From: Gemmatimonadota bacterium
GTDB lineage: Bacteria; Gemmatimonadota; Gemmatimonadetes; Longimicrobiales; Gaopeijiaceae
Assembly (NCBI GenBank): GCA_040882465.1
Contig: JBBEBG010000034.1
Span: 1-64,000 of the forward strand
Reading direction: 5' to 3'
Length of the DNA stretch: 64,000 nt
Under the pieces are notes generated by a model. It was not told where the DNA came from and ran no database searches. It saw only the letters and a list, made by a program, of their open reading frames with translations. Positions 1-31,193 of this stretch are shown here, piece after piece (within the stretch, counting starts at the first letter, position 1; each line of letters opens with the position of its first letter). A program made the position numbers and the translations under genes.

Positions 1-123
1 CAAAAGGGCTTCATCGAAAAGAGGCATCCCCGGCTCTTCCCAGGTTCCGCACTCTTTCCCCGCGGCGTGTTCGGATAACTCCGGTTCAGCGAGCCCAAGT
101 TCGCTTCTCGACGATTGTAGCCG

Positions 124-666
124 CTACGTGGAGAACGCCAGCGAACAACCGGAGTTGTAATCGGAACCCCGGAAGGCTAACTGAAGACCGAACGGCTCGA
201 AGGGTGTTGGCACAAATTCCTCCCCGGCGTTGCACGCGCACCCGGCGGGCTGTCGGCACGTGAGATTCCTGTTGATGCAGGAGTTCCCACACGCTTTCCC
301 CGTCGTGCACATCCGGCAGCAGGACCGCCTCGGTCCCGGTGACGGCGCCGGGGCTGTCTGAGGTACGGCGCGGGCGGGTGGCGCTGTTGTCGCACGGACG
401 CATGCGAGCCCCTCAGTACGAATGTCCCGCAGCCTCACGTCTCCGATCCCGTTCACCCGCGTTAGTTGATCCACGGTCGCGAAGGGCGATTCGGCGCGAA
501 TGGCAATAATCTCTCGTGCCCGGACCGTATCAACGTGGACGATCAAACGAAGTTGATCGAATGAGGCGGTATTGAGGTCCACGCATTCCCGGGCCTGCTG
601 GCCGTGAAGCCCGGCGGCACAGGCGAGGACGATTCCGGCGAGTAGGGCGGCTCTACGCATTCCCAC
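124..666 (-). CDS. Secreted ComEA-like helix-hairpin-helix protein with Cys-rich tail
   Basis: The 180-aa product starts with a hydrophobic signal peptide (about residues 1-22). Residues 30-85 form a helix-hairpin-helix domain of the ComEA type, seen as DLNTAS followed by VNGIGD, which in that family binds DNA non-specifically. The C-terminal part (about 112-150) has eight or more cysteines in the pattern CCRMC, CGNSC, C, CAC. Such tails occur on secreted competence-like or nuclease-like proteins. The combination suggests an exported DNA-binding protein. It is alone on the minus strand, and no nuclease domain is recognisable. Confidence 0.6.
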   Translation of the reverse strand: MGMRRAALLAGIVLACAAGLHGQQARECVDLNTASFDQLRLIVHVDTVRAREIIAIRAESPFATVDQLTRVNGIGDVRLRDIRTEGLACVRATTAPPARAVPQTAPAPSPGPRRSCCRMCTTGKACGNSCINRNLTCRQPAGCACNAGEEFVPTPFEPFGLQLAFRGSDYNSGCSLAFST

Positions 667-925
667 ACGCTACGAGGGTCTACGTTTCCGCGCCAGAAGA
701 GGTTAGCCGAAGTGTGCGGCCGTCACTCTTAGCGTCACAGTAACTCATTGCCGTACAAATACTTGCGACCATCGCACTTCGGGTCGCATACTTCGCTGTA
801 CGCGAACCGGGCGGGGGGCCACCCTTGGAAGATGCGCCCCGCACCCGGCTCTTCCACAAGGCCGGAGCCTCATGGCGTCCTACGTTGGGCGCCGTACCCT
901 CCGGCGTCAACGAGGAGAGCTTGCC

Positions 926-1513
926 ATGTCACCCGTCACCCAACACCCCCGCCGCTGGAGCGCCACCCCACCGACTGCGCTACGGAGCCGCATCGGCCTC
1001 GGATTTCATAAGAGATTCGAGCGGTCCGAGCCAGAGCCGGAAGCCCCCGCCGCCCCCCCGATCATCCGTCCGCCGTTCGATAGCTACACATGGCCCCGCC
1101 TCGCGCTGAACCATTATGCGGAGGCGGGGAGAATCTCGCGTGAGTCAATCCCGCTCATCATGTCCACGGTCGCTATCGCGTTCGACTCCGAATCCGGATC
1201 GGTGTGCCCCCGATGGGGACCTTGCGTGGCCGACGCCCTCAACGCTTCGCCGTCAACCATACTTCGGAGGTTCGATCGCCTTGGGATCCCCACTCCGCGC
1301 AAGTGGGTGGCTTGGGGACGAATCGTGGTGGCGGCGGAAGTCATGGCGAGCGGAAGCACAGGGGAGCGTGCCGCGCGCGTAGCTGGCTATTCATCAGGCG
1401 ACCCTCTTCGACATGCCGTGGCGGCTCAATTCGACTTCCCTCCTCGGTTCCGCATGATTCACCGGTTCCCCGATCCCGCTTGGCGATACGTCGCGGATAG
1501 CTGGATCCCCTGA
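926..1513 (+). CDS. AraC-type helix-turn-helix protein
   Basis: The start at 926 is chosen because a GAGGAG ribosome binding site lies just upstream; an upstream GTG/ATG frame from 872 has none. The protein is 195 aa. After a proline-rich N-terminus, the last 100 residues look like a double HTH: VADALNASPSTILRRF is the first recognition unit and AARVAGYSSGDPLRHAV the second, joined by a helix, as in AraC/XylS C-terminal domains. It probably controls genes of the accessory region. A GC-rich hairpin follows 8 bases after the stop. No ligand domain is recognised. Confidence 0.55.
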   Translation: MSPVTQHPRRWSATPPTALRSRIGLGFHKRFERSEPEPEAPAAPPIIRPPFDSYTWPRLALNHYAEAGRISRESIPLIMSTVAIAFDSESGSVCPRWGPCVADALNASPSTILRRFDRLGIPTPRKWVAWGRIVVAAEVMASGSTGERAARVAGYSSGDPLRHAVAAQFDFPPRFRMIHRFPDPAWRYVADSWIP

Positions 1514-1521
1514 CACGCTCC

Positions 1522-1551
1522 CGCCCCGGTCGCCTTCGGGTGGCCGGGGCG
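1522..1551. terminator. Hairpin after the AraC-type gene
   Basis: Two 13-base arms, 1522-1534 and 1539-1551, pair completely if two G-T wobbles are allowed, around a TTCG tetraloop. There is no clear T-run, so it may be a weak or factor-assisted terminator for the gene ending at 1513. Confidence 0.5.
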
Positions 1552-1646
1552 AAGTACGCCGCATTGCAGGGCTTGCGGGCGGGGTACTGCTTGCCGTCGT
1601 TGCCTTCGACGGTCTCGGGCTCTTCCCGTTTCGTAGAATTACGAAC

Positions 1647-1787
1647 TCACCCCCGGACGCCCCCCTCGGTGACCCCGAGCGCGTTTCCGATACGCACGTT
1701 CGTCCACCCCCACTCCCGGAGCTTCACCGCCGTCTCGCGCCTCAGTTCGCCGGACCACCGACGGCCGTTGCCTTTCAGGGCAATCAT
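1647..1787 (-). CDS. 46-aa HTH-like small protein
   Basis: This short ORF begins with ATG at 1787, 18 bases downstream of the methyltransferase stop and on the same strand. It contains RRETAVKLREWGWTNVRIG, which looks like the start of a homeodomain-like or resolvase-type helix-turn-helix. A diverged relative lies upstream of the methyltransferase (3435-3813), so the enzyme gene is flanked by two related HTH sequences. It may be only an N-terminal fragment of a longer DNA-binding protein. Confidence 0.45.
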   Translation of the reverse strand: MIALKGNGRRWSGELRRETAVKLREWGWTNVRIGNALGVTEGGVRG

Positions 1788-1805
1788 CCGCCCCCCGGTC
1801 GCCCG

Positions 1806-3422
1806 CTACGGCTCCTCCTCCAACTCAAGCTGAGGTTCGGCAACTTTTCTCGCCGCTTCGGGCGCCCGCTTGTAGGTCACGTTAGCTCCCCGCACGTCCG
1901 GCATGTCGATCCGCTTGCCCTGCAACAGCTCCGCGACCGTGAGAAGCTGGATTCGTGCGTGCTTGCCCCAGGGGGACTCGTAGAAGTCAGCCGAAGCCGC
2001 CTCCTTTCGCATAGGATCGGTTGGCTCTTGGAAACTCACGAGCACTCCGATTGCTGCCCCCTCCCGATCCACCACTCCTCTGAGGTCCCGTACATGGGCC
2101 GGACCGGTCTTCCCTGCCTTCACGGAGATGATGACCTGTTTCGTCTTCCCCTTGGCCCCCTCGTCGTGGAAGTAGAGGCGGCCGTCGATCCCCCGATCAG
2201 CGCCCTTCTTCTCCTCATGAGGCCGTGCGCCCACCAGACCGAGAGCCCAGAATTGAAACTGGTACGGATCATCTTTAGCGAGTTGTTCGGCATCCGGAAC
2301 GCTGACCGGCTCGCCCACCACATCGTAGCTCATGGCAATCTCTGGCCCGAACGAGTCTTGCAGCCGGTGGCGAATGAGGTTGATCGCAAGGTGCGTGATG
2401 TCGATCCCGATCCAGCGACGCCCCAGTTTCTGGGCTGATGCGACTGCGGTCCCGCACCCACAGAAGGGATCGAGGACTACGTCTTCTGGGTTGCTGCTGG
2501 CTTCGATGATTCGATCAAGGAGGGCTTCGGGCTTCTGGGTGGGATACCCGAGCCTCTCGCCGTGCCAAGACCGAAGGGCTTGAATGTCAGCCCAGACATC
2601 TTGGGCCGGAAGTCCTGGCATTTCATCGAGGTAGCGCTTGATTCGCGGAAATCCGTTCCGCGTGTAGTAGACTCGCCCTTCTGCATCGAGCGCCACCATG
2701 CGAGCCTCGGGAACCCGCCAGATTCGAGTTACGCCCTTCCACTCGTATTCGTATCCTCCGCCCTGAAGTCCGGCCGCACTTAAGTCTCCGGACATAAAGC
2801 GCCGTCCGTCCTCATCTTCATAGCGGTAGTATTGCTCGACGTACTCCGCCTCATATGGTTGGTACGTCTCATTCCATGTCGGGTCCGGCCCCGCGACGTA
2901 GTAGAGGATAGCATCATGCACGCGACCGTATCGGGTCGCATCGGAGTGGCCACTCGTGCGCTTCCAGATGATCTCGTTACGGAAGGACGCGGGTCCAAAG
3001 ACTGCATCCATGAGAAGCTTCAGGTAGTGACTCGCCGTCGGGTCGCAATGGAGGTAGATCGAGGCGGTCGGCTTCATGGCACGGCGGAGCGCAACAAGCC
3101 TCGGGGCCATCATGGAGAGGTACGCGAGCATATCACTCTCCTCCAGGATCGTCCGGAACGCCTGGAGGGTCCGCGACACCTCACCACCCAACTCGACTGT
3201 CTCAGCATAGGCGAGGGCCGAAGCCTCGTTCCATTCCCACGTGTCTTCGAACGCCCGGATCTGCGCCGGAGCGGGCTGCCCCTCTTTGTGCCCGAACAGA
3301 ATGTTGTAGTCCTGATTCGAGTTGAACGGCGGATCGAGGTACACGAGGTCCACCGACGCATCCGGGATATGCCGCCGGAGCACGTCGAGGTTATCCCCGT
3401 AGTAGAGCTTGTTTTCCGCCAT
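1806..3422 (-). CDS. Site-specific DNA methyltransferase fused to Mrr-like nuclease domain
   Basis: The 538-aa protein is an amino-methyltransferase of the beta order: catalytic motif IV (LDPPFN, about residue 30) precedes the SAM-binding motif I (DPFCGCGTA, about residue 320). It would methylate adenine N6 or cytosine N4. After residue 390 a second domain carries GADRGIDG followed by VIISVKAGK, which resembles the PD-(D/E)xK core of Mrr-type endonucleases. Modification and a possible cleavage activity would then share one chain, as in single-protein restriction systems. No specificity subunit or separate nuclease is adjacent. Small HTH sequences lie on both sides. Confidence 0.8.
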   Translation of the reverse strand: MAENKLYYGDNLDVLRRHIPDASVDLVYLDPPFNSNQDYNILFGHKEGQPAPAQIRAFEDTWEWNEASALAYAETVELGGEVSRTLQAFRTILEESDMLAYLSMMAPRLVALRRAMKPTASIYLHCDPTASHYLKLLMDAVFGPASFRNEIIWKRTSGHSDATRYGRVHDAILYYVAGPDPTWNETYQPYEAEYVEQYYRYEDEDGRRFMSGDLSAAGLQGGGYEYEWKGVTRIWRVPEARMVALDAEGRVYYTRNGFPRIKRYLDEMPGLPAQDVWADIQALRSWHGERLGYPTQKPEALLDRIIEASSNPEDVVLDPFCGCGTAVASAQKLGRRWIGIDITHLAINLIRHRLQDSFGPEIAMSYDVVGEPVSVPDAEQLAKDDPYQFQFWALGLVGARPHEEKKGADRGIDGRLYFHDEGAKGKTKQVIISVKAGKTGPAHVRDLRGVVDREGAAIGVLVSFQEPTDPMRKEAASADFYESPWGKHARIQLLTVAELLQGKRIDMPDVRGANVTYKRAPEAARKVAEPQLELEEEP

Positions 3423-3434
3423 TGCACCCTCGTC

Positions 3435-3813
3435 TTACCGGATCGGCGCGTCGGGGTCCATCTTGGCCAAGAAGTCCTCGAGCCGCCAGGGACGTTCAGT
3501 TACTCCCGCCGCCATGGGCGGGATCGTCTTGATGTCTTCGTTGGCCTTCGCGAGAGTTCCGTGCGGCGTGCAGAAGTAGTACGCCATGCACGACCCCACC
3601 CATCTACCTCGTCGCGCTGAGCGGGGCGCGTTGCGTTCCTCTTCTTTGATGAACTGGGCGAGCCAGCCTGAGACCGCCGACTGGATGCCCCGGAGGACTC
3701 CTGCGATTTTGCAATGCGGTCAGCCCTTTTCCCGAAGTTTTGCCGCCCTCTCGTGTTCCTGTTCGCGGGACCACTGACAGCGGTTGCCGTCGCTACGGGC
3801 GACGTCGTATCAT
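3435..3813 (-). pseudogene. Broken HTH DNA-binding protein
   Basis: Translating leftward from about 3800 gives an HTH segment (AAKLREKG, stop, then KIAGVLRGIQSAVSGW) and a tail that runs in frame to a TAA at 3435. Compared with the 46-aa HTH at 1647-1787, the stop replaces a tryptophan codon (TGG to TGA). The region between the ATG at 3813 and the HTH also has a length change that puts the start out of frame. The last 50 codons could still be translated from an ATG at 3587, ending 13 bases before the methyltransferase start. It may once have been a regulator of that gene. Confidence 0.5.
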
Positions 3814-3890
3814 GCGCTTGCCTGACCGTCGCTCGTAATCTGAAATGTGCGCCAATCCGGGAGCACGCCCCCATGCTCTTCGTGGACTGA

Positions 3891-4055
3891 ATGACTAGAC
3901 GTGCAGCCTTCGGACTCCTCGCCGCGCTCCTACTTCTGGCGAGTCTCTGGACCGCTTTCATGTTCCGGTACGAAATGGAGTGCGGAGGGGGCGGGCCAGG
4001 CACAATTACCTGCGTTCGATTGGACCACTGGACAGGACGAATGCTCGGGCGATAG
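3891..4055 (+). CDS. 54-aa single-pass membrane protein
   Basis: ATG at 3891 opens a frame of 54 codons ending in TAG. Residues 4-26 (AAFGLLAALLLLASLWTAF) are a hydrophobic segment suited to a membrane anchor or signal peptide, followed by a short polar tail with two cysteines (ECGGGG and TCVRL). It is unrelated to anything recognised. Coding is supported only by the hydrophobic pattern. Confidence 0.4.
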   Translation: MTRRAAFGLLAALLLLASLWTAFMFRYEMECGGGGPGTITCVRLDHWTGRMLGR

Positions 4056-4237
4056 GGCCCGAACGCTAGGTGCACAAGAGAGTAGAGAGTCTTGAAGGTG
4101 CCCGCGTGTGCGCCCCTAGGAATGCCGATTGACGAACGGTAGGGAGGAGGTCCTCGCGAAGCTCGCCCGGGAGAAGTGCCCGGAGATCAAGAAGGTAGCC
4201 GAGCTGGAGCGGTAACGGAAAATGCCCATGCGTCATT

Positions 4238-4435
4238 GTGAATGTGGATACGAGCTCCAAGTCGATCGAGTCATTCAACGAAACCGGATGCCGCCGCCGG
4301 TGTGCCTTTACCAGACGCACCCGCGCCTGTCCCATGTGCGGAAGCACTGGTATGCACCAGCTGATTCTTGGCGGCGGACTGAGTTGTTGCGAATGCGCGA
4401 AGCATTGGAAGGTTGGGAAGGAGCCGGGGGAATAA
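4238..4435 (+). CDS. Small zinc-ribbon protein
   Basis: This 65-aa frame starts with GTG. Its C-terminal half has CPMCGSTG and then SCCECAKHW, a plausible four-cysteine zinc ribbon. A competing frame from 4222 also starts with a CECGY motif, so a frameshift joining the two is possible. No strong ribosome binding site is visible and the function is unknown. Confidence 0.4.
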   Translation: MNVDTSSKSIESFNETGCRRRCAFTRRTRACPMCGSTGMHQLILGGGLSCCECAKHWKVGKEPGE

Positions 4436-4463
4436 AGGTGAAACTCACGGTGCGTTGCCCAAC

Positions 4464-5126
4464 ATGACCTCGACCGTTGCCGTGCTTCAGGTCCCTCTTG
4501 TCGATTCTCTTCTAATCGCCATCGAGGCGCGACAGGCCGTTGAGCATGCCTACCGGAGCGACCTCCTGGCAGTGGTGCTCTGGAGCCTCGCAACTGCCGT
4601 CGGAATCGTGATTCTACTGGTGTCGGTGGGCTGGCTCGTGAACATTCGGATTTACAAGAATGACTTGAACACGATGAGGGGCGAGTTGGACGCGGGCCTC
4701 CGGGCGGATTTCGACAGAGACCTGAAAAAGTTAACGCAAGCCATTCAGGGCCAGGTTGAAGAAATCATGCGGCAGAATCAAGCGCTGTTCGAGGCCAAGG
4801 CCGCCGAGCTCGCGACGATGGTCCACGGCGATCGCTACTCCAGGTTCATTCAGGTTGCCCGAGACCACTGGCACGAGGGGAACGTTGGCGCTGCGATTGT
4901 TGCGTGTTCGCTCGCCCTGGGAACGGCCCTCGACTCGGGTGTGTCCTATTTGGTTGGAGAGTCCTTGGGGCTCATGGTGGAAATACTTGAGACGAAGGAG
5001 GCGCTCAGTCACTCCGAAAGGGACCGGCTTGAGAAACATCTACAGCGGGTACCAAACGAGAACGCCCTCCTTCGCGATCGTGCACTCCGAGCACTGGCCG
5101 AAGGCCCGATCAGGCCGAGCCCGTGA
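4464..5126 (+). CDS. Membrane-anchored coiled-coil protein
   Basis: The 220-aa product, from the ATG at 4464, has one transmembrane helix at about residues 36-61 (VVLWSLATAVGIVILLVSV). A long charged, probably coiled-coil stretch follows (about 75-125), then a helical domain with AIVACSLALGTAL. The ORF extends upstream to 4413, but the added residues are basic and unlike a natural start. It stands alone on the plus strand; no family is recognised. Confidence 0.5.
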   Translation: MTSTVAVLQVPLVDSLLIAIEARQAVEHAYRSDLLAVVLWSLATAVGIVILLVSVGWLVNIRIYKNDLNTMRGELDAGLRADFDRDLKKLTQAIQGQVEEIMRQNQALFEAKAAELATMVHGDRYSRFIQVARDHWHEGNVGAAIVACSLALGTALDSGVSYLVGESLGLMVEILETKEALSHSERDRLEKHLQRVPNENALLRDRALRALAEGPIRPSP

Positions 5127-5293
5127 CCTCCTTCCGATCCAGGTGCCGGCTATCAAGGAACGCAAGGGCCGGAGTGACCGATTCGGACGCCGGATGTTCG
5201 CACGCGAACTCGAGCGCGGAGTTGAGGGAGGAGGCGGGAGAGTGAGCGAACGGTCGCTGATTCCGCGCTGATCGTAGGGCGGTATCGTGGTGC

Positions 5294-5500
5294 ATGGGCT
5301 TCCTCGTTCTCCCCGACGACGTGTTGCGCCTGGACGTGGACGGCGAGGCTGTCACCTTCTGGACATGGGACACCCCGGCGCTTCTCGCACGCGGTAGGGG
5401 CGACGTGGTGCCGCTGGACCCGTTCCCACGATACGACCGAGCGCGGCACTTACCCAAGGAAGAGTTGCGCGAACTGTGGCGGGCGAAGCGGGAGCCGTGA
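5294..5500 (+). CDS. 68-aa hypothetical protein conserved with region B
   Basis: The product begins MGFLVLPDDVLRLDVDGEAV and contains FWTWDTPALLARGRGD. A clear relative is encoded at 34367-34735 in region B, with about 70 percent identity over the first 65 residues by eye. Conservation of protein sequence while neighbours change supports a real gene. It marks the outer edge of the conserved module shared by the two elements. The function is unknown. Confidence 0.6.
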   Translation: MGFLVLPDDVLRLDVDGEAVTFWTWDTPALLARGRGDVVPLDPFPRYDRARHLPKEELRELWRAKREP

Positions 5501-5627
5501 CAGGGCGAAGGGCTGCCGTGGAGGGCCGAAGGCCCGGAGCCGGCACACGCGCAGTTAGGCGCCGTGTGAATTCTAGGTTCCTGCCCGAAACTCCGTCAAT
5601 GCATTGTGCCGGCGCTGAGCTCGACAT

Positions 5628-6116
5628 CTACTCCACAATAATGGGGGCTTCGCCCTCGAAGTCCCTCCGCAGGGCAAGGATCAGATCTTCTCCCTTGCTT
5701 CGATCAATTTGTAGCTCGTCTTGCACACGCTCCTCTAACCTATCCACCAAGTAGCTGATGTACCGACCGGCTTCTGCGTCAGTCAGATCCTTAATCGCCC
5801 GTTTCTGCACACTCTCGATCTCTCCGAGAAGCCGCGCCGCAACGAGCTGCGCCTCCATCGCTCTTACCTGCACGAGCTGAGCTTCGGCGAGCTGCATTTG
5901 CAGCAACGACTCCACTTCGGCAGCACTCCTTATCGCAGCACTGAGCCTTGTTGCTTCGCGCTGTGTCTCCTCAAGAACGCGAATCTGCTCTTCAAGGTCC
6001 CCACGGGCGCCTATCTCGTATACAGGGAACCGATTCCGCTCAAACAGCTTCAGCGTGGCGTCATACACGGCCTTGACCGTGGTGTCGAGTGCCAGGGCGT
6101 TCAGAACGTCAAACAT
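5628..6116 (-). CDS. Alpha-helical coiled-coil protein, second gene of a pair
   Basis: The 162-aa protein is rich in Glu, Arg, Leu and Ala, with a long heptad-like region (about residues 40-125: QIRVLEETQREATRLSAAIR onward) and no signal peptide or membrane segment. It begins 5 bases after the stop of the 6122-6610 gene, so the two form an operon. The pair occupies the place that the DAP-decarboxylase-like gene holds in region B. The family is not recognised. Confidence 0.55.
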   Translation of the reverse strand: MFDVLNALALDTTVKAVYDATLKLFERNRFPVYEIGARGDLEEQIRVLEETQREATRLSAAIRSAAEVESLLQMQLAEAQLVQVRAMEAQLVAARLLGEIESVQKRAIKDLTDAEAGRYISYLVDRLEERVQDELQIDRSKGEDLILALRRDFEGEAPIIVE

Positions 6117-6121
6117 GCGAT

Positions 6122-6610
6122 TCAGACTCCAAGCTCTAGAACGTCGAACGAAGCCCGAGGTAGATTCTCGATTATATACTCCAGCGAGAGCGGATGAGCT
6201 CGATCGGGAACTGGGACTTTCTTGATCACCACCGCCACTGGCGCGAAGGGAATCACGAAGAGCAGGGGCCGGAAATCTCGGACCTGTGATGCCCCGATGA
6301 TCGCGGCGATGTCCTTCTCGTCGTCCGCGGTGATCTTTCCTTCCCCTCGTCTTGCCGTGGCACCTCGCAGAATGCCGCCCTTGTTTCGCTTGATGCCGTC
6401 GCTGTGCAAATCACCCCGAGCGACCTCACCCGCCAGCGAATGATAAATCTCGCAGGGGCTACAGGTGGGCGGGATGTTCAAGTGGGGCGCGGCTGTTCGT
6501 CCGTCGAATACCGGGCCGCACCATGCGTAGTGCGTGCCGCCGTAGAAGCGTTCCGCGATGGCCCACGCGAGCCATGTGTTGGTTGAGTACAGCACGAGCG
6601 GATCATTCAT
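6122..6610 (-). CDS. Hypothetical protein, first gene of a pair
   Basis: This 162-aa protein begins MNDPLVLYSTNTWLAWAIAE and contains HYAWCGPVFDGR, EIYHSLAGEVARGDLHS and RDFRPLLFVIPFAPVA. The conserved-looking aromatic and charged clusters suggest an enzyme or nucleotide-binding fold, but no named family can be assigned. It overlaps no neighbour, and its stop is 5 bases before the start of the coiled-coil gene at 6116. A cargo or defence role is only a guess from its position. Confidence 0.55.
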   Translation of the reverse strand: MNDPLVLYSTNTWLAWAIAERFYGGTHYAWCGPVFDGRTAAPHLNIPPTCSPCEIYHSLAGEVARGDLHSDGIKRNKGGILRGATARRGEGKITADDEKDIAAIIGASQVRDFRPLLFVIPFAPVAVVIKKVPVPDRAHPLSLEYIIENLPRASFDVLELGV

Positions 6611-6790
6611 GGCGTGACAAATTCAAACGTACCTTGCATTCCGTCGCTTCAACAGCGGAGGCCGACCCCTGCATAGTTTTCGTGAGGTAGCGCTTCACAT
6701 GGCGCCTTGTCGGATTCCCGAACCCTCGTTCGGCGATGCTACACTGTATCGGGTCAACCTACACCCTCGTATTCGCAGGCGCGACACGGC

Positions 6791-7036
6791 CTACCGTACC
6801 GCCATCCCCACGAGCTCGCCTAGCTCCCCGTCCGTCAGCTTCCACGGCGCCCGATGACTCTCTCCGAGTCGGACCTCCAAGGTCCGGCCCGTCTCCGATA
6901 CCGCCCGCGCCTTAGCCGACAGGTGCCAGGGCGTGCCGTCTCTGTCCCTCCACACGAATGCCCCTGCCTTCGCGGCCCCGAAGTAGAAGCCGACGGTGCC
7001 CTCGGGAATCGCGTGGACGTGGCGAACGCCTCGCAC
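6791..7036 (-). CDS. 81-aa protein, divergent from the lipoprotein; N-terminus probably frameshifted
   Basis: The frame from a GTG at 7036 encodes RGVRHVHAIPEGTVGF, then FVWRDRDGTPWHLSAKARA and a C-terminus with APWKLTDGELGELVGM. The homologous sequence at 32223-32352 in region B reads MGSSKVLVRGVPHVHAIPE from an ATG. In region A the equivalent ATG is one base out of frame, so this copy has either lost about 8 N-terminal residues or uses the GTG. The function is unknown; the WxLxD pattern at the end also appears in the 85-aa protein at 35899. Confidence 0.45.
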   Translation of the reverse strand: MRGVRHVHAIPEGTVGFYFGAAKAGAFVWRDRDGTPWHLSAKARAVSETGRTLEVRLGESHRAPWKLTDGELGELVGMAVR

Positions 7037-7341
7037 GAGGACCTATAGGGCTCCCCATGCCGTCCTTCGGGTCTCAAGTGAAGACGAGGAGCGCCCCTGG
7101 CTCGAAGCGCTCCGAGGCGTCGAGGTAGAGGCTCCCGGCACGGCCGGAGGGGTCCTTCCATGTTCTGAGGGCTGGCACAACGGCTCTGCGGATCTTCGGG
7201 AGTCCTACGGGACCCCCGAACGTGCATCGCATCGATTCCGTCTACAAGGCCGGGTAGGTATGGCGAAGCAACGGGTTCGCTCGTAGTCTCGAATACGAAA
7301 CGAATCACGTCCCCCTGGGGCCGGAATGGGAGGGGCCGCCG
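7037..7341. other. Non-coding intergenic region between divergent genes
   Basis: No convincing ORF is present on either strand; frames that run through it do not agree between this copy and the one in region B (31940-32222), although the DNA is similar. It should therefore hold the divergent promoters of the 81-aa gene and the lipoprotein. No sharp -35/-10 pair is identified. Confidence 0.5.
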
Positions 7342-8091
7342 ATGCGCGCAATGCTGACCGTCGTCGGGCTTGTCCTTCTTGGTGGGTGCGTCCCGCCAGA
7401 GGAGTCTGAGAGCGGGGAGGAGCAGGTTGAATCCACGGAGACAAGCGCAGAAGACCTGTTCGCTGTCCTTCGCCAGAGTCAAGAACTCCCAGGGCTGGAG
7501 TGGCGTGCCGTCGCAATGGCTGAGGAATTGATCGCCCGTTTTTCGGGTACGCCATTGGGTGATTCTGCGTCGGCCATGATCGCCGACCTCAGGGCGAGGG
7601 AGGCCGCCGCAGCCCAGGCGGAGGAAGAGGCGCGCGAGGCCGAAAGATTGGCCGCCAAATGGTCGTACTCGGTGTCTCAAGACCCCATGACATCCCGGGA
7701 GACGCGCACGGCGACCATTAGCTCCGAGAACACTGTCAATTTCGCGTTTCCGTACCAAGGCGAGCAGCGGGGCACGCTTACCTTGCGTGACCATCCAACC
7801 TTCGGCCGGGATATAATCTTTCGGATTGAGCGAGGACAGCTTCTCTGCACGTCTTACAGTGGTTGCCGCGTGCGGATTCGGTTCGACGAAGGCGCGGCCC
7901 AGTCCTGGGAGGCGGTCGGGCCCTCTGACAACTCATCGGAGTCGCTGTTCATGCGGAACTATGACGGATTTTTGCCGCGATTGAGGGAAGCCGATGTCGT
8001 GCTCGTCCAAGCGGAGGCTTACCAGGAGGGTTCGCCAATCTTCGAGTTCCGGGTCGGAGGATTCGACTTCAACAGGTATTCCGGTCGGTGA
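7342..8091 (+). CDS. Lipoprotein with conserved satellite-type C-terminal domain
   Basis: The 249-aa product has a lipobox (LVLLGGC, Cys at residue 15), so it would be lipidated and exported. A Glu/Ala-rich helix (about 30-105) leads to a beta-rich domain beginning KWSYSVSQDPMTSRETRTA and including FAFPYQGEQRGTLTLRDHP and YQEGSPIFEFRVGGFD. The near-identical paralogue is 31190-31939. The stop overlaps a GTG (8088) that begins only a 20-codon remnant of the 92-aa gene; in region B that gene follows intact. The domain is known to me only as an uncharacterised one in phage and mobile DNA. Confidence 0.8.
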   Translation: MRAMLTVVGLVLLGGCVPPEESESGEEQVESTETSAEDLFAVLRQSQELPGLEWRAVAMAEELIARFSGTPLGDSASAMIADLRAREAAAAQAEEEAREAERLAAKWSYSVSQDPMTSRETRTATISSENTVNFAFPYQGEQRGTLTLRDHPTFGRDIIFRIERGQLLCTSYSGCRVRIRFDEGAAQSWEAVGPSDNSSESLFMRNYDGFLPRLREADVVLVQAEAYQEGSPIFEFRVGGFDFNRYSGR

Positions 8092-8150
8092 ACTTCCAAG
8101 AACGCTACTGCGGGGCACCCGGGATGTTGAGAGGGAAAGTGGTGCGATGA
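8088..8150 (+). pseudogene. N-terminal remnant of the 92-aa gene
   Basis: GTG at 8088 overlaps the lipoprotein stop exactly as the 92-aa gene does in region B. The first four codons (start, Asn, Phe, then Gln where region B has His) match NFHEPLRA in kind, after which the frame diverges and stops after 20 codons. A complete, though also broken, version lies at 9418-9696. Foreign DNA therefore appears to have entered after the first codons. Confidence 0.45.
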
Positions 8151-8305
8151 CTTCGCCCGACGATAGGAGGCTACCACCGATCACGGGTGCCGGAGTGGAT
8201 GAGATACCACCCTTTCGCCCCGGCGGCATCGCGGACGCCATCGAGTGTCGCGGCGGGGAGTTGGCCCGGCTGGCGGAACGACTTCGAAAGGAGGCTCGGA
8301 AATGA
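8147..8305 (+). CDS. 52-aa hypothetical protein
   Basis: The ATG at 8147 overlaps the end of the 20-codon remnant, and the TGA at 8303-8305 overlaps the ATG of the next gene (ATGA). The protein has a proline-rich N-terminal half and a helical end (ELARLAERLRKEARK). Tight coupling on both sides is the main evidence that it is translated. The function is unknown. Confidence 0.45.
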   Translation: MTSPDDRRLPPITGAGVDEIPPFRPGGIADAIECRGGELARLAERLRKEARK

Positions 8306-8655
8306 AATTCGAGGATCCGAAGATTGGAGCCGTAGAACCGCACGACTCTTTTGTGACTGGTGCTATCGACCCCGACTCTGGCGAATGCACCGTGTTTCTG
8401 CGGTGGACCTCCACACCGGCCTCCCATTGGTGCGCTCTGCTTGAGTCCACGGCCAAAGACTGGGAGGGGATCGAACAGGTAATTGATAACGGACTTGTGC
8501 TATGCACCACCCTGGAAGGGCTGGCAGGAGACGTTGAGCGGATCGCCGAACTACTGCGAGAGTTCAACAACGAGTTTAGGGAGTCGAACGCCGAGATATT
8601 CCAGACCAGGAAGCGGTTGGATGACGCCATCGGGGAACTGCAACTTCCGATGTAG
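8302..8655 (+). CDS. 117-aa hypothetical protein
   Basis: The start at 8302 is supported by AAAGGAGG eight bases upstream and by the ATGA overlap with the preceding gene. The protein begins MKFEDPKIGAVEPHDSFVTG, has a compact N-terminal part with SHWCALLES, and ends in a helical region (ERIAELLREFNNEFRESNAE). It has no signal peptide. It belongs to the stretch that seems inserted between the lipoprotein and the 92-aa gene. Confidence 0.55.
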   Translation: MKFEDPKIGAVEPHDSFVTGAIDPDSGECTVFLRWTSTPASHWCALLESTAKDWEGIEQVIDNGLVLCTTLEGLAGDVERIAELLREFNNEFRESNAEIFQTRKRLDDAIGELQLPM

Positions 8656-8701
8656 GGCTCTGCCCACCCTGGGGAGCCGCTGTTGGAAGGGCGGACGCCT
8701 C

Positions 8702-8912
8702 CTGACGGCGCTGGAGCCAGGGGCAGGCGGGACGACCGGGAAATGGTCCCACCGTCGGGGCAATTTCCCCCTACGCCGCCGCTCTCGAATCTTCCGGCCT
8801 CTCGAGTCAAGACGCCTCCCGCTGGCAGAAGGTCGCGAAGTTCGGGGAGGAGGAGATGGAGGCGCGCAAGGCGCAATGCCGGGAGGATGGTGCTCCCATA
8901 GCGAGAGCGTAG
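8702..8912 (+). pseudogene. Frameshifted gene fragment related to 36239-36496
   Basis: The DNA matches region B at CTGACGGCGCTGGAG and again at CCCCCTACGC followed by GCCGC. The first half reads LTALEPGAGGTTGKW; after a frameshift the second half reads SPYAAALESSGLSSQDASRW and ends DGAPIARA. The SSQDASRWQKV motif resembles phage and plasmid proteins with a ParB/KorB-like helical domain. No start codon is evident. Confidence 0.45.
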
Positions 8913-8945
8913 TTACGAGCACTCGCCGGGCGGAGGAATAGCGAA

Positions 8946-9347
8946 ATGAGACGACTGATCGCGGGATTGGCGGTGGCGCTCACCGGGTGCGCTCCCGGCG
9001 AATCGGACGAGGATCGGATCGCCGCGCTTCGGTCCGAACAGTCGGCGATTGGCGCAGAGATTGAGCGCCTGACGGCTGATCGGGCGAGGCTGTTCCGTGA
9101 TGAGGATATCGCGATGTTCTCCCGACAACTCGATTCGCTCAACGCCCGCATGATTCGTGGCACAGACTTCGACGCTATTGACCGCGAACTCGATGCGCTC
9201 GCCGCTCGCCGTGATTCGGTCCTGGCCCTGGTGGACGCGCCTGAGAATCAGGCGGTGATCCGGGCACTCGGAGACTCCTTGACCGCGCTCCGGGACCAGC
9301 TGGCCTTCATGGACCGCGAGGTCCGGCGAATCCTGGACACGCCCTAA
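8946..9347 (+). CDS. Small coiled-coil lipoprotein
   Basis: The 133-aa product has a short signal sequence ending in VALTGC (Cys at 15), a lipobox. The rest is almost wholly helical with heptads (IAALRSEQSAIGAEIERLTA and ELDALAARRDSVLALVD). GGAGGAATAG upstream supports the start. It resembles small periplasmic coiled-coil lipoproteins in shape only. Confidence 0.55.
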   Translation: MRRLIAGLAVALTGCAPGESDEDRIAALRSEQSAIGAEIERLTADRARLFRDEDIAMFSRQLDSLNARMIRGTDFDAIDRELDALAARRDSVLALVDAPENQAVIRALGDSLTALRDQLAFMDREVRRILDTP

Positions 9348-9417
9348 CGATGGCCGCAATCCGAGGAAACCCGGTCAATTGGGAGCATGCACTGAGTCGA
9401 GATAAGGGCATTTGCCC

Positions 9418-9696
9418 ATGAGATTCCACGAACCCTTCAGTACCCGATCCGGTGAAGCGACCTACCGGACCTTCGACGGCTCCGACGTGGCCGGAATCCG
9501 CATTGCGCTCGTGTGCGGCTCATAGCTTCTAAGCGACGTGACGGACCGAGGAACGTGGGCGATCAGGATGGAGGAGGACGGTGCGTTCCTCGTTGCTGAG
9601 ACGCAGCCGGGGGAAAGCATGGAATTCGGGCGGTACTGGAGGCTCGAGGAGGCGCTGGGGAAGCTCGCCGCGGCGGCTGGACGGAAGGGGGAATGA
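9418..9696 (+). pseudogene. 92-aa gene with internal stop (copy of 30915-31193)
   Basis: From ATG at 9418 the frame reads MRFHEPFSTRSGEATYRTF and so on to VCGS, then TAG, then LLSDVTDRGTWAIRMEEDGA to a TGA at 9694. The region B copy has TGG (Trp) at the position of the TAG, so a single base change broke this gene. The end overlaps the ATG of the next gene (ATGA), the same coupling as in region B, where a different gene follows. The function is unknown. Confidence 0.75.
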
Positions 9697-10355
9697 CGCC
9701 ACCGTACCAACTGCGTCGATACACACATGTTAGTGCCCTTCGAAGCATCTTCGCAGATCAGCGGATGCGCCTGGGACGGTTCAAGGACTGGGAGGACAAG
9801 AACGACTCCCACTACGTCGAAGCGTACCGACGCGAAGGCAACTTCACTGATGTTCGAATCCTGTGTCTCTCCGCAGCTGAGGAAGACTTCCATCACTGGA
9901 GATCCTTCGCGTTCTCGCCGGACGGCGTACTCATCGTCTTCAATGGAACCGAGCTGCACAATGCGCTGTTGCGTGCGCCGCGCCTCGTTGCGCACGGCCC
10001 CATGGAATACCACTGGTGGACGGGGGGGCTCAAGCGACTCAAGCGTCTGAAGCCCGACGAGCCCCCCCTCCTCGGAGGAAGGATTCGCCCCGACCGGCTT
10101 CCGTTTGTGAAGCGGAAACACTTCCAGGGCGAGCGGGAGTATCGCTATGTCTTTGGGTTCACAGACAGCTCAAAGCAGGAGCGCAATGTGGATGTCCCGA
10201 CCGCCTCAATCGCGAGAGTTTGGCTGAGTCCGTGGTCAAAGGCGAGCAGTCTGCACGCAATCAGGCGAATGCCTGGGGCCAATTCAATTCAAATCAACCG
10301 TTCCAAACTCCTCAACAACAAAGAATGGAGGGCGCTCGCGGACCGATCAGGATGA
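9693..10355 (+). CDS. DUF2971-like protein
   Basis: The 220-aa protein starts MTPPYQLRRYTHVSALRSIF and contains MRLGRFKDWEDKNDSHY, RILCLSAAEEDFHHWRSFAF and REYRYVFGF. That order (an early position-of-loss segment, a conserved cysteine/serine strand, HHW then a phenylalanine-rich strand) recalls the DUF2971 family, which is common in mobile elements and of unknown role. It takes the cargo position that a HEPN-like gene holds in region B. It is coupled to the broken 92-aa gene by ATGA. Confidence 0.5.
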   Translation: MTPPYQLRRYTHVSALRSIFADQRMRLGRFKDWEDKNDSHYVEAYRREGNFTDVRILCLSAAEEDFHHWRSFAFSPDGVLIVFNGTELHNALLRAPRLVAHGPMEYHWWTGGLKRLKRLKPDEPPLLGGRIRPDRLPFVKRKHFQGEREYRYVFGFTDSSKQERNVDVPTASIARVWLSPWSKASSLHAIRRMPGANSIQINRSKLLNNKEWRALADRSG

Positions 10356-10480
10356 AGGCACGCCGCTTATGGCTGACGGCGATCGTGCGGCGTGGGATTA
10401 CTGAGCCGCCCACCGTTGGAGAGTGCGCCGATCGGCTCTCGCCCGACTGCGTGACCGCGGCGCTCGTTCTCACTCGCGCC

Positions 10481-11470
10481 TTAGGCCGGCGGAGGCAACT
10501 CCCGATCGCTTCCAGATGTGGCCTCGGGGGAGATTGCCGGGCCACTCGTTTGGATGTCGGAGGGAACGTCCATGGTTGCTTCGAGCGCTCCTCCGTCGGG
10601 CGGCTCGGATACGCGATCAATTCCGGGGGCTCCGTATCCCCAGTGCTTCTGAATCAGCAGGTGATTGGTCCTGCAATTCTTACACGAGAACTCAAGGCCA
10701 ACTTCCAGCTTTCGGTTCTCGATGGGCATCAATGTGCCGCAACTCAAGCAGTCGAAGGCTGTCGCGTCGAGGTGGAAAACCATGTCTTCGGGCGCAACGT
10801 CTGAGGGGGGGTTCTCCGGCACCTCGACGACATGCATCGCTCCACAGTGAATGCACCTCGCTCGCTTCGAGAGGATCGCAGCAAATTGATCGACGACCGA
10901 AAACTTCTCGCAGGCCTCGCACGGGTAGTTGACTGAGATCGTGAGGCCGCTCGACTGGGCAGAGCGGACACGAGGCCCAATCTCGGAAAAGAAACCCTCG
11001 AGCGTGTCTCGAAGCTTTCCCTGCCATCGAAGGATCCAGGCGTGGTCCTGCTGGCGCTTCACGGTCGGAACGTGGAGATAGCTCGCGAGGCGTTGATAGT
11101 AGTGGTCAAGGGTCTCGACTTTCAGGGTCAGGTGGTCTACCTGGGTCGTCGGGCCGATTGCATTCCCCTCTCCGTCTGTGGGCGTGAATCGCATTCGAAT
11201 GTCGGAGTCCGAGCCGGGCTCGATCTCGCGAAGTGCACGGAGGACGACCTCGGGCTGCCAAGTACCGGAGTCGGCTCCAAGGAGGTCGGGCGCGAGCCTC
11301 TTCTCGTACATTCTGAGCTTGTCGTATGCGAATGCTTCCAGGCAGAGGCGCGCTTCGAGCGCGGCGTATCGCAAGGACTGAGGATCGCCACGCTCGAACA
11401 GTTCCTTCGCTCGCCGAAAGGCGCTCAGGCGATCGTATCGGAGCCGCTCCTCCTGCGAATTTGGGGGCAT
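10481..11470 (-). CDS. Hypothetical protein with two zinc ribbons
   Basis: The 329-aa product has an N-terminal helical domain (about 1-70, LRYAALEARLCLEAFAYDKL, HEPN-like in style) and two putative zinc ribbons: CEACEKF paired with CIHCGAMH (about 190-225), and CLSCGTL paired with CKNC (about 255-285). A Pro/Ser-rich tail follows. It lies last before the tRNA-like boundary and is convergent with the DUF2971-like gene. A nucleic-acid-binding role is likely but unproved. Confidence 0.55.
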   Translation of the reverse strand: MPPNSQEERLRYDRLSAFRRAKELFERGDPQSLRYAALEARLCLEAFAYDKLRMYEKRLAPDLLGADSGTWQPEVVLRALREIEPGSDSDIRMRFTPTDGEGNAIGPTTQVDHLTLKVETLDHYYQRLASYLHVPTVKRQQDHAWILRWQGKLRDTLEGFFSEIGPRVRSAQSSGLTISVNYPCEACEKFSVVDQFAAILSKRARCIHCGAMHVVEVPENPPSDVAPEDMVFHLDATAFDCLSCGTLMPIENRKLEVGLEFSCKNCRTNHLLIQKHWGYGAPGIDRVSEPPDGGALEATMDVPSDIQTSGPAISPEATSGSDRELPPPA

Positions 11471-11638
11471 GGTCCCATTCGTCTGTGCGGTGATCCCTCG
11501 TGGATCAGGTGCTCGAACGCGAGAGGGAATCTAACTGTGCCAAAAACTGGTGCGACGCGCACCGATTCCCTGCCCTACCACCTGACGCTCGATTCAGGAT
11601 TCCCAACGGGTCCCGACGCTGGCCAACGGCGGATTTCC

Positions 11639-11678
11639 CCTTAGGAGGCAGCCGCTCTATCCTCTGAGCTACGGGGAC
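11639..11678 (-). pseudogene. tRNA-Arg(CCU) 5' half
   Basis: On the minus strand, from 11678, the sequence gives a GTCCCCG acceptor arm, a D arm with GCTC and GAGC, and an anticodon loop CTCCTAA with CCT. The next bases do not pair with the anticodon stem, and no normal T arm or 3' acceptor follows within tRNA distance. A weak GTCCC/GGGAC pairing at about 11610 is possible. It is probably a tRNA gene interrupted at the anticodon stem at the edge of region A. The CCU tRNA can be dispensable where a UCU tRNA reads AGG. Confidence 0.5.
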
Positions 11679-11769
11679 GGAATCGAAAGAAGAAGATAAT
11701 GCCTCAGCGCCGGTCGTTGCGGCGTCCTACCGCATCTCATCCCGCGAATCGGTCCCCGCGCGTCAGTCC

Positions 11770-20398: not shown

Positions 20399-21735
20399 GT
20401 GCGCCGTCCCTTCCCTGGATCGGACCCACGAATGCGAATGCGGATCGGGACGCCCCGGAACCCCCACGCCGCACGAAAACCGTTCTGCAGATAACGAAGG
20501 TAGTGTCCTGGAATCTCCTCGGGGAGATTGCAGAAAAGGACGAACGTGGGTGGCTTCGTATCCGCCTGCGTTCCGTACCGGAGTTTCACCGCGTGCCCTC
20601 GACCGGCATGGGGGGGCGGCTGGCGCTGGACGAGTCCAGCGAGCACCTCGTTCACTTCGTGGGTCGCAATTCTTCGGACGCGCGCTTCCGCGACCTCGAG
20701 AAGTAGGTCGAGGCTCTTCCTCACCCTCTGCCCCGAAAGTGCGGAGAGGAAGAGCATCGGGACCTCCGCGAGAAAAGGGGCTCGGAGGGCAAGGGCCTTC
20801 TCGAAATTGGGCGCGGTCATGTGGTCCTTTTCTACGAGGTCCCACTTGTTTACGCCGAGCACGACCCCGCACCCCGCATCCCACGCCGCTTCCGCGATTC
20901 GGAGGTCCTGGTGATGGACCCCCTCGGTCGCATCCACGAGGAGGAGACAGACGTCCGCCTCTCGGATCACCTTTTCCGTTCGGAGGGCCGAGTAGTACTC
21001 GACGGACTCCCGCACGCGGGCTTGGCGCCGGAGGCCGGCCGTATCCACGAAGACGATGCGCTTCCCGTGGTACGTCAGTACGGAGTCCACGGGGTCGCGC
21101 GTCGTGCCGGGGACCTCGCTCACGATGACGCGCTCCTCGCCCAAGAGCGCGTTGACGAAAGACGATTTTCCGACGTTCGGCCTCCCGATGACCGCGACGC
21201 GGAGGTCGGATTCGGGAGGCGGGCCGGTTACTTCCGGGAGGGCGGCGACCACTCGGTCCAGAAGGTCTCCGGACCCCTTCCCTGAAATCGCGCTGACGGG
21301 TACGGGCTCGCCGAGACCGAGCCTCCAGAAGTCGTGGTGGGCGATCTCTCCCGGAAGATTGTCCATCTTGTTCGCCGCGAGGAGGAGCGGGCGCCCTGAG
21401 GGTCGGACGAGGTCGGCGAGGCGTTCGTCGAGGGGGTGCACCCCCTCCTTCCCGTCCACGATGAAGAGGATCAGGTCGGCTTCGCCGATGGCCGCCAGCA
21501 CCTGGCTTTTCACCGAGCGGTCGAGGGGCTCGTCGCTCCCTTCGATCACCCCCCCCGTATCCACGATGAAGAAGCTGCGGCCCGCCCACTCGGCGGGCGC
21601 GAAATTCCGGTCCCGGGTGACCCCCGGGCGATCGTCCACGATCGCCGCGCGGTGGCCGAGCACCCGGTTGAAGAGCGTGGACTTCCCCACGTTCGGGCGA
21701 CCCACCACGGCGACGACCGGGAGCCGCTCGGTCAC
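20395..21735 (-). CDS. der: Ribosome assembly GTPase Der (EngA)
   Basis: The 446-aa protein has two tandem GTPase domains, each with a P-loop (VVGRPNVGKSTLFNRVLG near residue 10 and VIGRPNVGKSSFVNALLG near 190), DTGG or DTAG switch motifs and NKMD or NKWD specificity motifs. The C-terminal KH-like domain contains the usual PTFVLFCNLPEEIPGHYLRY stretch. It assists 50S subunit maturation. GTG start overlaps the stop of the DUF512 gene. Confidence 0.96.
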   Translation of the reverse strand: MTERLPVVAVVGRPNVGKSTLFNRVLGHRAAIVDDRPGVTRDRNFAPAEWAGRSFFIVDTGGVIEGSDEPLDRSVKSQVLAAIGEADLILFIVDGKEGVHPLDERLADLVRPSGRPLLLAANKMDNLPGEIAHHDFWRLGLGEPVPVSAISGKGSGDLLDRVVAALPEVTGPPPESDLRVAVIGRPNVGKSSFVNALLGEERVIVSEVPGTTRDPVDSVLTYHGKRIVFVDTAGLRRQARVRESVEYYSALRTEKVIREADVCLLLVDATEGVHHQDLRIAEAAWDAGCGVVLGVNKWDLVEKDHMTAPNFEKALALRAPFLAEVPMLFLSALSGQRVRKSLDLLLEVAEARVRRIATHEVNEVLAGLVQRQPPPHAGRGHAVKLRYGTQADTKPPTFVLFCNLPEEIPGHYLRYLQNGFRAAWGFRGVPIRIRIRGSDPGKGRRT

Positions 21736-23003
21736 AGCGACCGCAAGGTGTCCGTGATCTCGAATCCGGCGAGGACACGCGCGGGTGCGAGCCCCTCGCG
21801 AAGGCTCGCCAGGGAAAACGAGTCCACGAAGAGCTCGTCCTGATTCAGCGCTTCGGCCGGGATCAGGATCAGGTCTCGCTCCGATGGATCCGGCACGGCG
21901 GAGAGAAGATCCTCCCCCGCGAGGAGACCGGCGACCGTGACCGGGGCTCCGTAAAAGCGGTTTTCGACTTCGATGACCTCCACGTCGGCCCGTATGGCGG
22001 CCGCGAGACGCGAGGCCCGCTGGCGGAAGAACGGTGCCATCGAGGCGCCGGTGAGGAGACGGACGCGGCACCCGGGGAGCCGGGGAAGGCCCGCGACTCC
22101 TCGATCGAAGCCGTCGAGAAAGAGGCGAAGCGCCCCGACGCCATTTTCCGCCAGGGAGAGGTCGTCGTAATACGAGGCCGGAGGGAGCTCTCGCCCGGCA
22201 CGGAGAAAAAGCTCGTCCGCGGCGTAACACCATCCGTACCCGCGCTCGTTCAGCGCCGTCTGTCTGGCCTTCCCCACCTGGTCCAACGCCGTGGCGGCCT
22301 CCTCAGGTGTGAGATGCCTCACGGGGCGGTTCAGGTTGTACTTCGTGAGCCCCACGGGGACCACGGAGAGGGTGCGCACTCCCCGACCCAGCGAAGCCAG
22401 GTCCTGGATCGTTCGGTCGAGATGGGGCCCGTCGTTCCACTCGGGACAGAGGACGATCTGGGTGTGAACTTCGAGCCCGCGGTCGGTGAGAAAACGGAGG
22501 TGGTCCATGATGAGACCCGCCCGCTCGTTCTTGAGAAGCCGGATCCGGACCTCGGGATCCGTCGCGTGCACGCTGACGTACAAGGGGGATAGCCGCTGGT
22601 CGGCAAGGCGCTGGAGCCCTTTCGGGCCCAGGTTCGTCAGCGTAACGTAACTGCCGTAGGTGAAGGAAAGGCGAAAGTCGTCGTCGCGAACCCAGAGGCT
22701 GGGTCGAACTCCTTGAGGGTTGCCGTCGATGAAGCAGAAGACACACTCGTTCGCGCACTCGCGGATCTTGTCCGGCTCGGGCACGATCCCCAGCGGCTCG
22801 CCCGGCTCCCGCAGGATCTCGAGGAGGGTGCGCGCCCCTTCGGGCCCGACCGTCTCGATCTCGAGTTCGGTGTCCGAGAGGAGGAAGGTCAGGTCGATCC
22901 CGTCACGGACGCGTTCGCCGTTGATCCGGATGATCCGACTTCCCACCTGGAGCTCGAGCTCCTCGGCGATGCTCCCCGACTCGATCTGTGCGATGCGGAC
23001 CAA
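21732..23003 (-). CDS. PDZ-DUF512 iron-sulfur protein
   Basis: The product (about 423 aa from TTG at 23003; a GTG at 23075 would add 24) begins with a PDZ-like segment (IESGSIAEELELQVGSRIIRI). It then has the cluster motif CANECVFCFIDGNP, and LSPLYVSVHATDPEVR is typical of radical-SAM-like chemistry. The C-terminal half is DUF512. The family, once described as a putative FeS oxidoreductase, has no established reaction. The inner start is preferred because the divergent M23 gene starts at 23078 and the two need promoter room. Confidence 0.8.
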   Translation of the reverse strand: MVRIAQIESGSIAEELELQVGSRIIRINGERVRDGIDLTFLLSDTELEIETVGPEGARTLLEILREPGEPLGIVPEPDKIRECANECVFCFIDGNPQGVRPSLWVRDDDFRLSFTYGSYVTLTNLGPKGLQRLADQRLSPLYVSVHATDPEVRIRLLKNERAGLIMDHLRFLTDRGLEVHTQIVLCPEWNDGPHLDRTIQDLASLGRGVRTLSVVPVGLTKYNLNRPVRHLTPEEAATALDQVGKARQTALNERGYGWCYAADELFLRAGRELPPASYYDDLSLAENGVGALRLFLDGFDRGVAGLPRLPGCRVRLLTGASMAPFFRQRASRLAAAIRADVEVIEVENRFYGAPVTVAGLLAGEDLLSAVPDPSERDLILIPAEALNQDELFVDSFSLASLREGLAPARVLAGFEITDTLRSL

Positions 23004-24340: not shown

Positions 24341-24396
24341 CGAGGCCCGGAGGAAACAGCAGTTTCCCGTATCGCGCGGTGCTTCACCCGCGCATA

Positions 24397-24446
24397 TTGA
24401 CAACGTTCCATGCCCTACCGTTCCACTCCCAGGGAATGAGGAAACC
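24397..24446 (+). promoter_or_regulatory. Possible promoter start and leader of the quinoprotein gene
   Basis: A consensus TTGACA lies at 24397-24402 in the 106-base gap before the quinoprotein gene. The -10 element is not clear at 16-18 bases spacing, so this is weak. GAATGAGGAAACC supplies a ribosome binding site before the ATG at 24447. Confidence 0.3.
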
Positions 24447-26507: not shown

Positions 26508-26529
26508 GGCGGGGCTGAAAGAGCGGACT

Positions 26530-29777: not shown

Positions 29778-29803
29778 CGGCCTCCAGCGTGTCAGAGACA
29801 AAG

Positions 29804-29844: not shown

Positions 29845-29894
29845 GTCCAGAGCGGGCGACCGGGTTCGAACCGGCGACCCTCAGCTTGGGAAGC
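29845..29894 (-). repeat. attL: 50-bp copy of the tRNA-Gly 3' half
   Basis: Identical to 46350-46399. It runs from 6 bases beyond the tRNA 3' end through the T arm into the anticodon stem, then diverges. It is not a functional tRNA gene because the 5' half is absent. Confidence 0.92.
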
Positions 29895-30918: not shown

Positions 30919-31193
30919 TTCCCCTCCCTCCTCGGCGCCGCGGTGACCTCCCCCAGCGCCTCCTCAAGCCTCCAGTACCGCCCGAAGTCCATGCTCCCCC
31001 CGGGCCGCGTCTCAGCAACGAGGAACGCTCCGTCCTCCTCCATCCTGAGCGCCCACGTTCCCCGGTCCGTCACGTCGCTCAGGAGCCAGGAGCCGCACAC
31101 CGGGGCAATGCGGATTCCGGCCGCGGCGGAGCTTTTGAAGGTTCGGGGAGTTGCTTCACCGGATCGGGCCCGAAGCGGTTCGTGGAAATTCAC
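30915..31193 (-). CDS. 92-aa conserved protein coupled to cargo
   Basis: GTG start overlaps the lipoprotein stop and the gene's own stop overlaps the start of the cargo gene, so it is translationally coupled on both sides. The protein begins MNFHEPLRARSGEAT and contains SWLLSDVTDRGTWALRMEED and FGRYWRLEEALGEV. The homologue at 9418-9696 has a stop at the tryptophan in SWLLSD. No family is recognised; size and position would fit a regulator or immunity factor. Confidence 0.65.
   Translation of the reverse strand: MNFHEPLRARSGEATPRTFKSSAAAGIRIAPVCGSWLLSDVTDRGTWALRMEEDGAFLVAETRPGGSMDFGRYWRLEEALGEVTAAPRREGK

Follow-up and report, generated by a model that had tools for sequence, protein, structure and literature searches.

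Mosaic accessory ends on two tRNA-bounded islands of a Gemmatimonadota genome, one of them a plausible phage satellite

Do two segments of one genome that carry the same genes in the same order represent a family of mobile elements with exchangeable cargo? This question is raised by segments A (5294-11640) and B (the reverse complement of 34735-29895) of a single window, the first 64,000 nucleotides of contig JBBEBG010000034.1 (here contig C34) from the Gemmatimonadota assembly GCA_040882465.1. The original prediction, made from the letters of the window, considered A and B to be collinear ends of an undescribed satellite family with two exchangeable cargo sockets. We think it probable that A and B are instead two independently integrated islands, one in tRNA-Arg(CCT) and the other in tRNA-Gly(CCC), with mosaic accessory ends. 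B would be a probable satellite resembling P4 or a phage-inducible chromosomal island (PICI), and the genes that were swapped in at the two ends would most likely protect the host.

Genes shared by the two accessory ends

Comparison of the window with itself by blastn yielded three blocks common to A and B. Nucleotides 6924-8103 matched 32357-31178 with 89% DNA identity (E = 0), 9424-9696 matched 31187-30915 with 85% identity (E = 4e-82) and 5292-5485 matched 34737-34544 with 76% identity (E = 9e-33). The 89% block comprises a lipoprotein gene, the region upstream of it and the beginning of a small divergent gene. The 85% block corresponds to a gene of 92 codons in B (the 92-aa gene) and the 76% block to a gene of 68 codons (the 68-aa gene). 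The order and the relative strands of the blocks agree, which bears out the predicted collinearity at the DNA level. The shared genes are listed below, where dN and dS are nonsynonymous and synonymous divergence.

5294-5500, plus strand: 68-aa gene, copy A (76% DNA identity to B; dN below dS)
34540-34735, minus strand: 68-aa-type gene, copy B (blastn match to A; dN below dS)
6791-7036, minus strand: small divergent gene, 81 aa, copy A (homologous stretch in B interrupted)
7342-8091, plus strand: lipoprotein, 249 aa, copy A, with a C-terminal TagO/VasI-like domain (93% amino acid identity to B)
31190-31939, minus strand: lipoprotein, copy B (blastn match to A; dN below dS)
9418-9696, plus strand: 92-aa gene, copy A (in-frame TAG; open part 9538-9696, the C-terminal 52 aa)
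30915-31193, minus strand: 92-aa gene, copy B (85% DNA identity to A)

Changes between the copies were mostly silent in the lipoprotein and 68-aa genes. The lipoprotein gave a dN of 0.035 and a dS of 0.19-0.22 (dN/dS ~0.17), and the 68-aa gene gave a dN of 0.21 and a dS of 0.66-1.03. From this excess of silent substitutions we conclude that the lipoprotein and 68-aa genes are genuine selected genes whose common ancestry in A and B, as judged from the alignments, is far beyond chance. The predicted set of conserved genes is thus shared, except that each copy contains one damaged member. The 92-aa gene of A is interrupted by the TAG noted above, and the small divergent gene of B has an early stop at 32355 that aligns with a tryptophan codon of A. 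The lipoprotein and 92-aa genes overlap by four bases in B.

Divergence at four-fold sites was 44% in the 68-aa gene versus 19% in the lipoprotein gene (Fisher p 0.01), and this block-wise difference in silent divergence fits piecemeal exchange, if weakly. The G+C content of the cargo of B (61.5%) is similar to that of island A (61.7%), whereas the core of B (66.1%) resembles the host flanks (66%), which indicates that cargo and chassis have different histories. A 44-bp match of 86% was also observed between an intergenic stretch of A (8690-8732) and the core of B (36466-36508), near a GNAT gene. Structure prediction for the lipoprotein was of low confidence (mean predicted local distance difference test score, pLDDT, of 57).

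Boundaries and integration sites

Both A and B end at tRNA boundaries, as had been predicted. In A the boundary is half of a tRNA gene, and the assembled part of the island contains the following features.

1-11640, no strand assigned: island A, beginning at the contig start (G+C 61.7%)
1806-3422, minus strand: N6/N4 DNA methyltransferase with an Mrr-like C-terminal domain (Pfam N6_N4_Mtase, E 9e-42; Mrr_cat, 3e-7)
11640-11679, minus strand: 5' half of tRNA-Arg(CCT), right end of island A (23 bp common with the end of contig C40)

The 23-bp word CTTAGGAGGCAGCCGCTCTATCC matched the genome in two places only, the right end of A and the last base of contig C40, the end of which is the 3' half of tRNA-Arg(CCT). 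Joining the C40 and C34 flanks by script yielded a perfect tRNA-Arg(CCT), and neither flank alone contained a tRNA. From this reconstruction we conclude that island A is inserted in tRNA-Arg(CCT). No contig with the other end of A was identified in the genome, the two matches of the attachment (att) core being those just described. One protein of the island contains an AraC-type helix-turn-helix (HTH) that scored below the Pfam cut-off, and family scans of 1-11640 detected no integrase, replication or packaging genes. On the sequence at hand, which lacks the unassembled remainder of A, A can be called no more than a tRNA-bounded island.

Island B is a complete element of 16.5 kb in tRNA-Gly(CCC), with direct repeats of 50 bp at its ends (29845-29894 and 46350-46399).

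29845-29894, minus strand: displaced 3' part of tRNA-Gly(CCC), left end of B (50/50 identical to 46350-46399)
46355-46428, minus strand: intact tRNA-Gly(CCC), the attachment site of B (adjoins the same host gene in 26/29 relatives' loci)
44960-46240, plus strand: tyrosine integrase of B, beside tRNA-Gly (Pfam Phage_integrase, 3e-17; PHROG 1, 5e-44)
43615-43965, minus strand: HTH_17 excisionase-like regulator (Pfam, 1e-8; PHROG 66, 9e-5)
42627-43430, minus strand: Prim-Pol (Pfam Prim-Pol, 5e-40)
41173-42630, minus strand: D5-type helicase (Pfam D5_N, 6e-26)
37733-38134, minus strand: terminase small subunit, P27/HK97 type (Pfam Terminase_4, 6e-7; PHROG 83, 3e-11; TIGR01558, 4e-8, below cut-off)

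The host gene that adjoins tRNA-Gly in these 26 loci of same-family relatives encodes a TPR protein. A homologue of window gene 21732-23003 was found on the other side of tRNA-Gly, with no element, in 17 matches. This layout reveals the element-free attB site in relatives. The window contains an extra 6.7 kb (23087-29801) between gene 21732-23003 and B, possibly an older insertion in the same tRNA. As A and B occupy different tRNA genes and opposite tRNA halves were duplicated, their integrations were separate events. A composite transposon, in which A and B would be inverted ends enclosing 18 kb of host DNA, was also considered and rejected because the two ends lie in different tRNA genes, each with a separate attachment site.

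No head or tail families were detected among the scanned B proteins, many of the small open reading frames being family-less, and an Rfam scan returned tRNA only. The HTH protein of B had a weak cross-match to another small-terminase family. This gene content makes it plausible that B is a phage satellite of the PICI/P4-like type. B resembles PICIs (PMC6092414) in its size, its specific att site and its integrase, excisionase-like regulator and primase/helicase, as well as in having a putative small terminase without detected structural genes and an accessory end. It differs in that no known PICI relative of it was found by sequence, and it is known from its genes alone; no exclusive PICI gene was recognised, no models specific to such genes having been applied. 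The term satellite in the original prediction is plausible for B only; the assembled part of A lacks a hallmark gene. Other tyrosine integrases of the genome adjoin tRNA genes on contigs C31 (Met), C1 (Leu), C35 (Gly-GCC) and C18 (Leu); those of C31 and C1 are related to the integrase of B, and C31 also has a B-type HTH gene.

Variable positions and the slot-2 overlap

The genes that differ between the two ends are as follows.

5628-6116 and 6122-6610, minus strand: slot 1 of A, two 162-aa genes (no family match)
32986-34404, plus strand: slot 1 of B, diaminopimelate-decarboxylase-like (Pfam Orn_Arg_deC_N, 1e-29; lysA, 289 bits with a cut-off of 298)
8302-8655 (117 aa) and 8946-9347 (133-aa lipoprotein), plus strand: third variable position, A only (absent from B)
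9693-10355, plus strand: slot 2 of A, DUF2971/PDC-S31-like (PADLOC PDC-S31, E 5e-7; ATGA overlap with the preceding stop)
10481-11470, minus strand: slot 2 of A, 329 aa, containing two CxxC pairs (resembles a zinc ribbon on inspection; no family match)
30007-30918, minus strand: slot 2 of B, HEPN-type protein, 303 aa (PHROG 37995, E 3e-28; GTGA overlap with the 92-aa stop)

Family scans confirmed that the slot contents of A and B differ. However, the count of two slots was too low; the A-only genes 8302-8655 and 8946-9347 split the lipoprotein from the 92-aa gene, and thus at least three positions are variable.

Slot 2 is the best-supported socket. The slot-2 genes that follow the 92-aa gene in A and B are unrelated to each other. 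In each case the start codon overlaps the 92-aa stop codon, as ATGA in A and GTGA in B, and a purine-rich sequence lies just upstream of the start, within the 92-aa gene. No other anatomical feature argues as strongly for a socket as this stop/start overlap. A further proposal, which we consider doubtful, is that the conserved 92-aa gene acts as the constant part of a plug-in site, with a 3' end that would supply any swapped-in effector with a ribosome-binding site and the stop/start overlap. The satellites and islands of this lineage would then trade defence effectors (HEPN, DUF2971-like), and every effector would be translationally coupled to the same conserved partner.

Four remote plasmid homologues all preserve the R96-x4-H101 motif of the HEPN-type protein, and one of them sits between genes for an N-6 DNA methylase and a TIR protein. 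A tblastn search found no phage homologue of this protein, and its structure prediction was of low confidence (mean pLDDT 38). In A, PDC-S31 is a PADLOC candidate, and DUF2971 is the label of the original prediction, with no Pfam match; this protein had no plasmid homologue. The overall arrangement is similar to the defence hotspots of P4-like satellites and P2-like phages (PMC9122126), in which variable, probably protective genes lie among conserved ones near one satellite end. Unlike in those hotspots, the P4 chassis is absent here, and the case consists of two copies with several variable positions, known from sequence only.

Occurrence elsewhere and competing explanations

Relatives were sought in 395 genomes of the phylum. 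No convincing relative of the 68-aa or 92-aa gene was found there beyond the A and B copies; the remaining matches had E values >8e-4 and lay mostly within longer unrelated frames. Clear relatives of the lipoprotein were present in two of these genomes, G191 and G180. The G191 relative is an integron cassette in an array, between attC sites GCCTAAC..GTTAGGC and GCTTAAC..GTTAGTC, and the G180 relative has chromosomal-looking neighbours as read from the sequence (a DinB-like protein, a hydrolase and a MATE-type transporter). The socket model placed homologues of the lipoprotein/92-aa pair inside integrase-bearing elements, and this cassette array and host-like context depart from it in part. Distant matches to the C-terminal domain of the lipoprotein also occur on unrelated phages (Microcystis, Pseudomonas, Burkholderia) and on plasmids, and one such match is annotated as TagO of type VI secretion. 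Relatives of the B helicase were present in 26 of the 395 genomes, the best being G337 (64%). No homologue of the B cargo was found in the stretches around them, which is limited evidence as several of these stretches are short contigs. No confirmed relatives came from pattern scans in which the lipoprotein was run against viral and genome contigs, or from pattern-based searches with the helicase and integrase of B.

One junction of the cargo is associated with an integron-like site.

5490-5560, plus strand: 3' half of an attC-like site directly after the 68-aa gene, copy A (86% identical to sites on C18, C38, C8 and C4)

The B copy of the 68-aa gene lacks this half-site, and no attC was found at the other A/B cargo junctions by structure scan or by similarity to the C18/C38-type and C16-type families. 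Some of the cargo may have arrived as integron cassettes. As a general mechanism for the slots, cassettes were rejected at all junctions but one. The likeness to integron cassettes or to clusters of attC sites lacking integrases (CALIN) thus consists of the half-site in A and the lipoprotein-domain relative that is a cassette elsewhere; unlike in such arrays, the other junctions have no attC, both strands are used and genes overlap translationally.

Under the explanation that we favor, two separately integrated islands with mosaic ends, the mobility, satellite lifestyle and defence that we infer would operate as follows. B would be excised by its own integrase and replicated by its Prim-Pol and D5 helicase, and its small terminase would, judging from gene content, divert the packaging of a helper phage. 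Each island would carry an accessory module at its integrase-distal end, and the two modules are of common descent (the 68-aa gene, the small divergent gene, the TagO-like lipoprotein and the 92-aa gene). Genes between and after the conserved ones would be swapped piecemeal by recombination, some possibly as integron cassettes. Slot 2 would serve as a translational plug-in point, where the start of the incoming gene overlaps the conserved stop codon and its ribosome-binding site lies inside the conserved gene. The swapped genes would most likely be host-protective, namely the HEPN-type gene in B and the DUF2971/PDC-S31-like and DNA methyltransferase genes in A. Several observations weigh against this explanation. 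The module is known as two copies in one genome, and the integrase end of A lies beyond the assembled part, window base 1 being the start of contig C34. The small-terminase assignment in B is weak, falling below the NCBIfam cut-off, the contrast in dS depends on the 195-bp 68-aa gene, and the slot-1 decarboxylase of B is not defence-like.

An undescribed satellite family with this chassis and two conserved exchangeable sockets would account for conserved and variable genes following one another in the same order in both ends and for the exchange of slot 2 exactly at the stop codon in both copies. We regard such a family as unlikely: the 68-aa and 92-aa genes were found in this genome only among the 395, the lipoprotein has relatives outside satellites, the helicase relatives showed no cargo homologue, and A adds a third variable position and, as far as assembled, contains no satellite gene. 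With n = 2 from one genome, and no third copy of the conserved genes with other slot contents among the 395 genomes, the two-socket family was not sustained; two integrated elements with a common, partly swapped cargo end were. Were the cargo composed of integron cassettes, as CALIN or a former array, the slots would reflect cassette replacement at attC, consistent with the half-site in A, the G191 cassette and the integron on contig C16 of this genome. This is distinctly unlikely given the cargo genes on both strands, the lack of attC at the other junctions and beside the 68-aa gene of B, and the 4-bp overlap in slot 2, which leaves no room for attC. More doubtful still is duplication of one island end within the lineage, the copies having since drifted apart through insertions, deletions and decay, without any exchange system. 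The existence of two known copies only, each with a damaged gene (the 92-aa stop in A and the small-divergent-gene stop in B), is in its favor, but the different tRNA genes with opposite halves duplicated point to separate integration, divergence differs between blocks, and the slot genes, being unrelated, are not decayed forms of each other.

If our favored explanation is true, satellite defence hotspots extend to a poorly studied bacterial group, and a stop/start overlap with a conserved small gene offers a simple anatomical rule for finding swapped effectors. At present the locus is a two-copy case of mosaic cargo on tRNA-integrated islands.

The site at 5490-5560 belongs to a second attC-like repeat family of ~125 bp in this genome, with full sites on C18 (104011-104133 and 105214-105334), C38 (20-160) and C8 (149685-149809) and a partial one at the start of C4 (1-77). 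Three of these sites are at contig ends, and some of the sites adjoin YefM/YoeB and ParDE-like toxin-antitoxin pairs; the sites probably constitute one fragmented array. C38 also encodes an integrase of XerC/D- or integron-like type whose N-terminal domain is HARP-like (1217-2596, minus strand); the attC-like site lies 3' of this gene, which is the arrangement of inverted integrons. The chromosomal integron of contig C16 (stretch L063, C16:105000-124999) contains IntI at 7632-8459 of the stretch (TIGR02249, 405 bits), toxin-antitoxin cassettes and an array of attC sites at 12002, 17292, 17996, 18810 and 19353.

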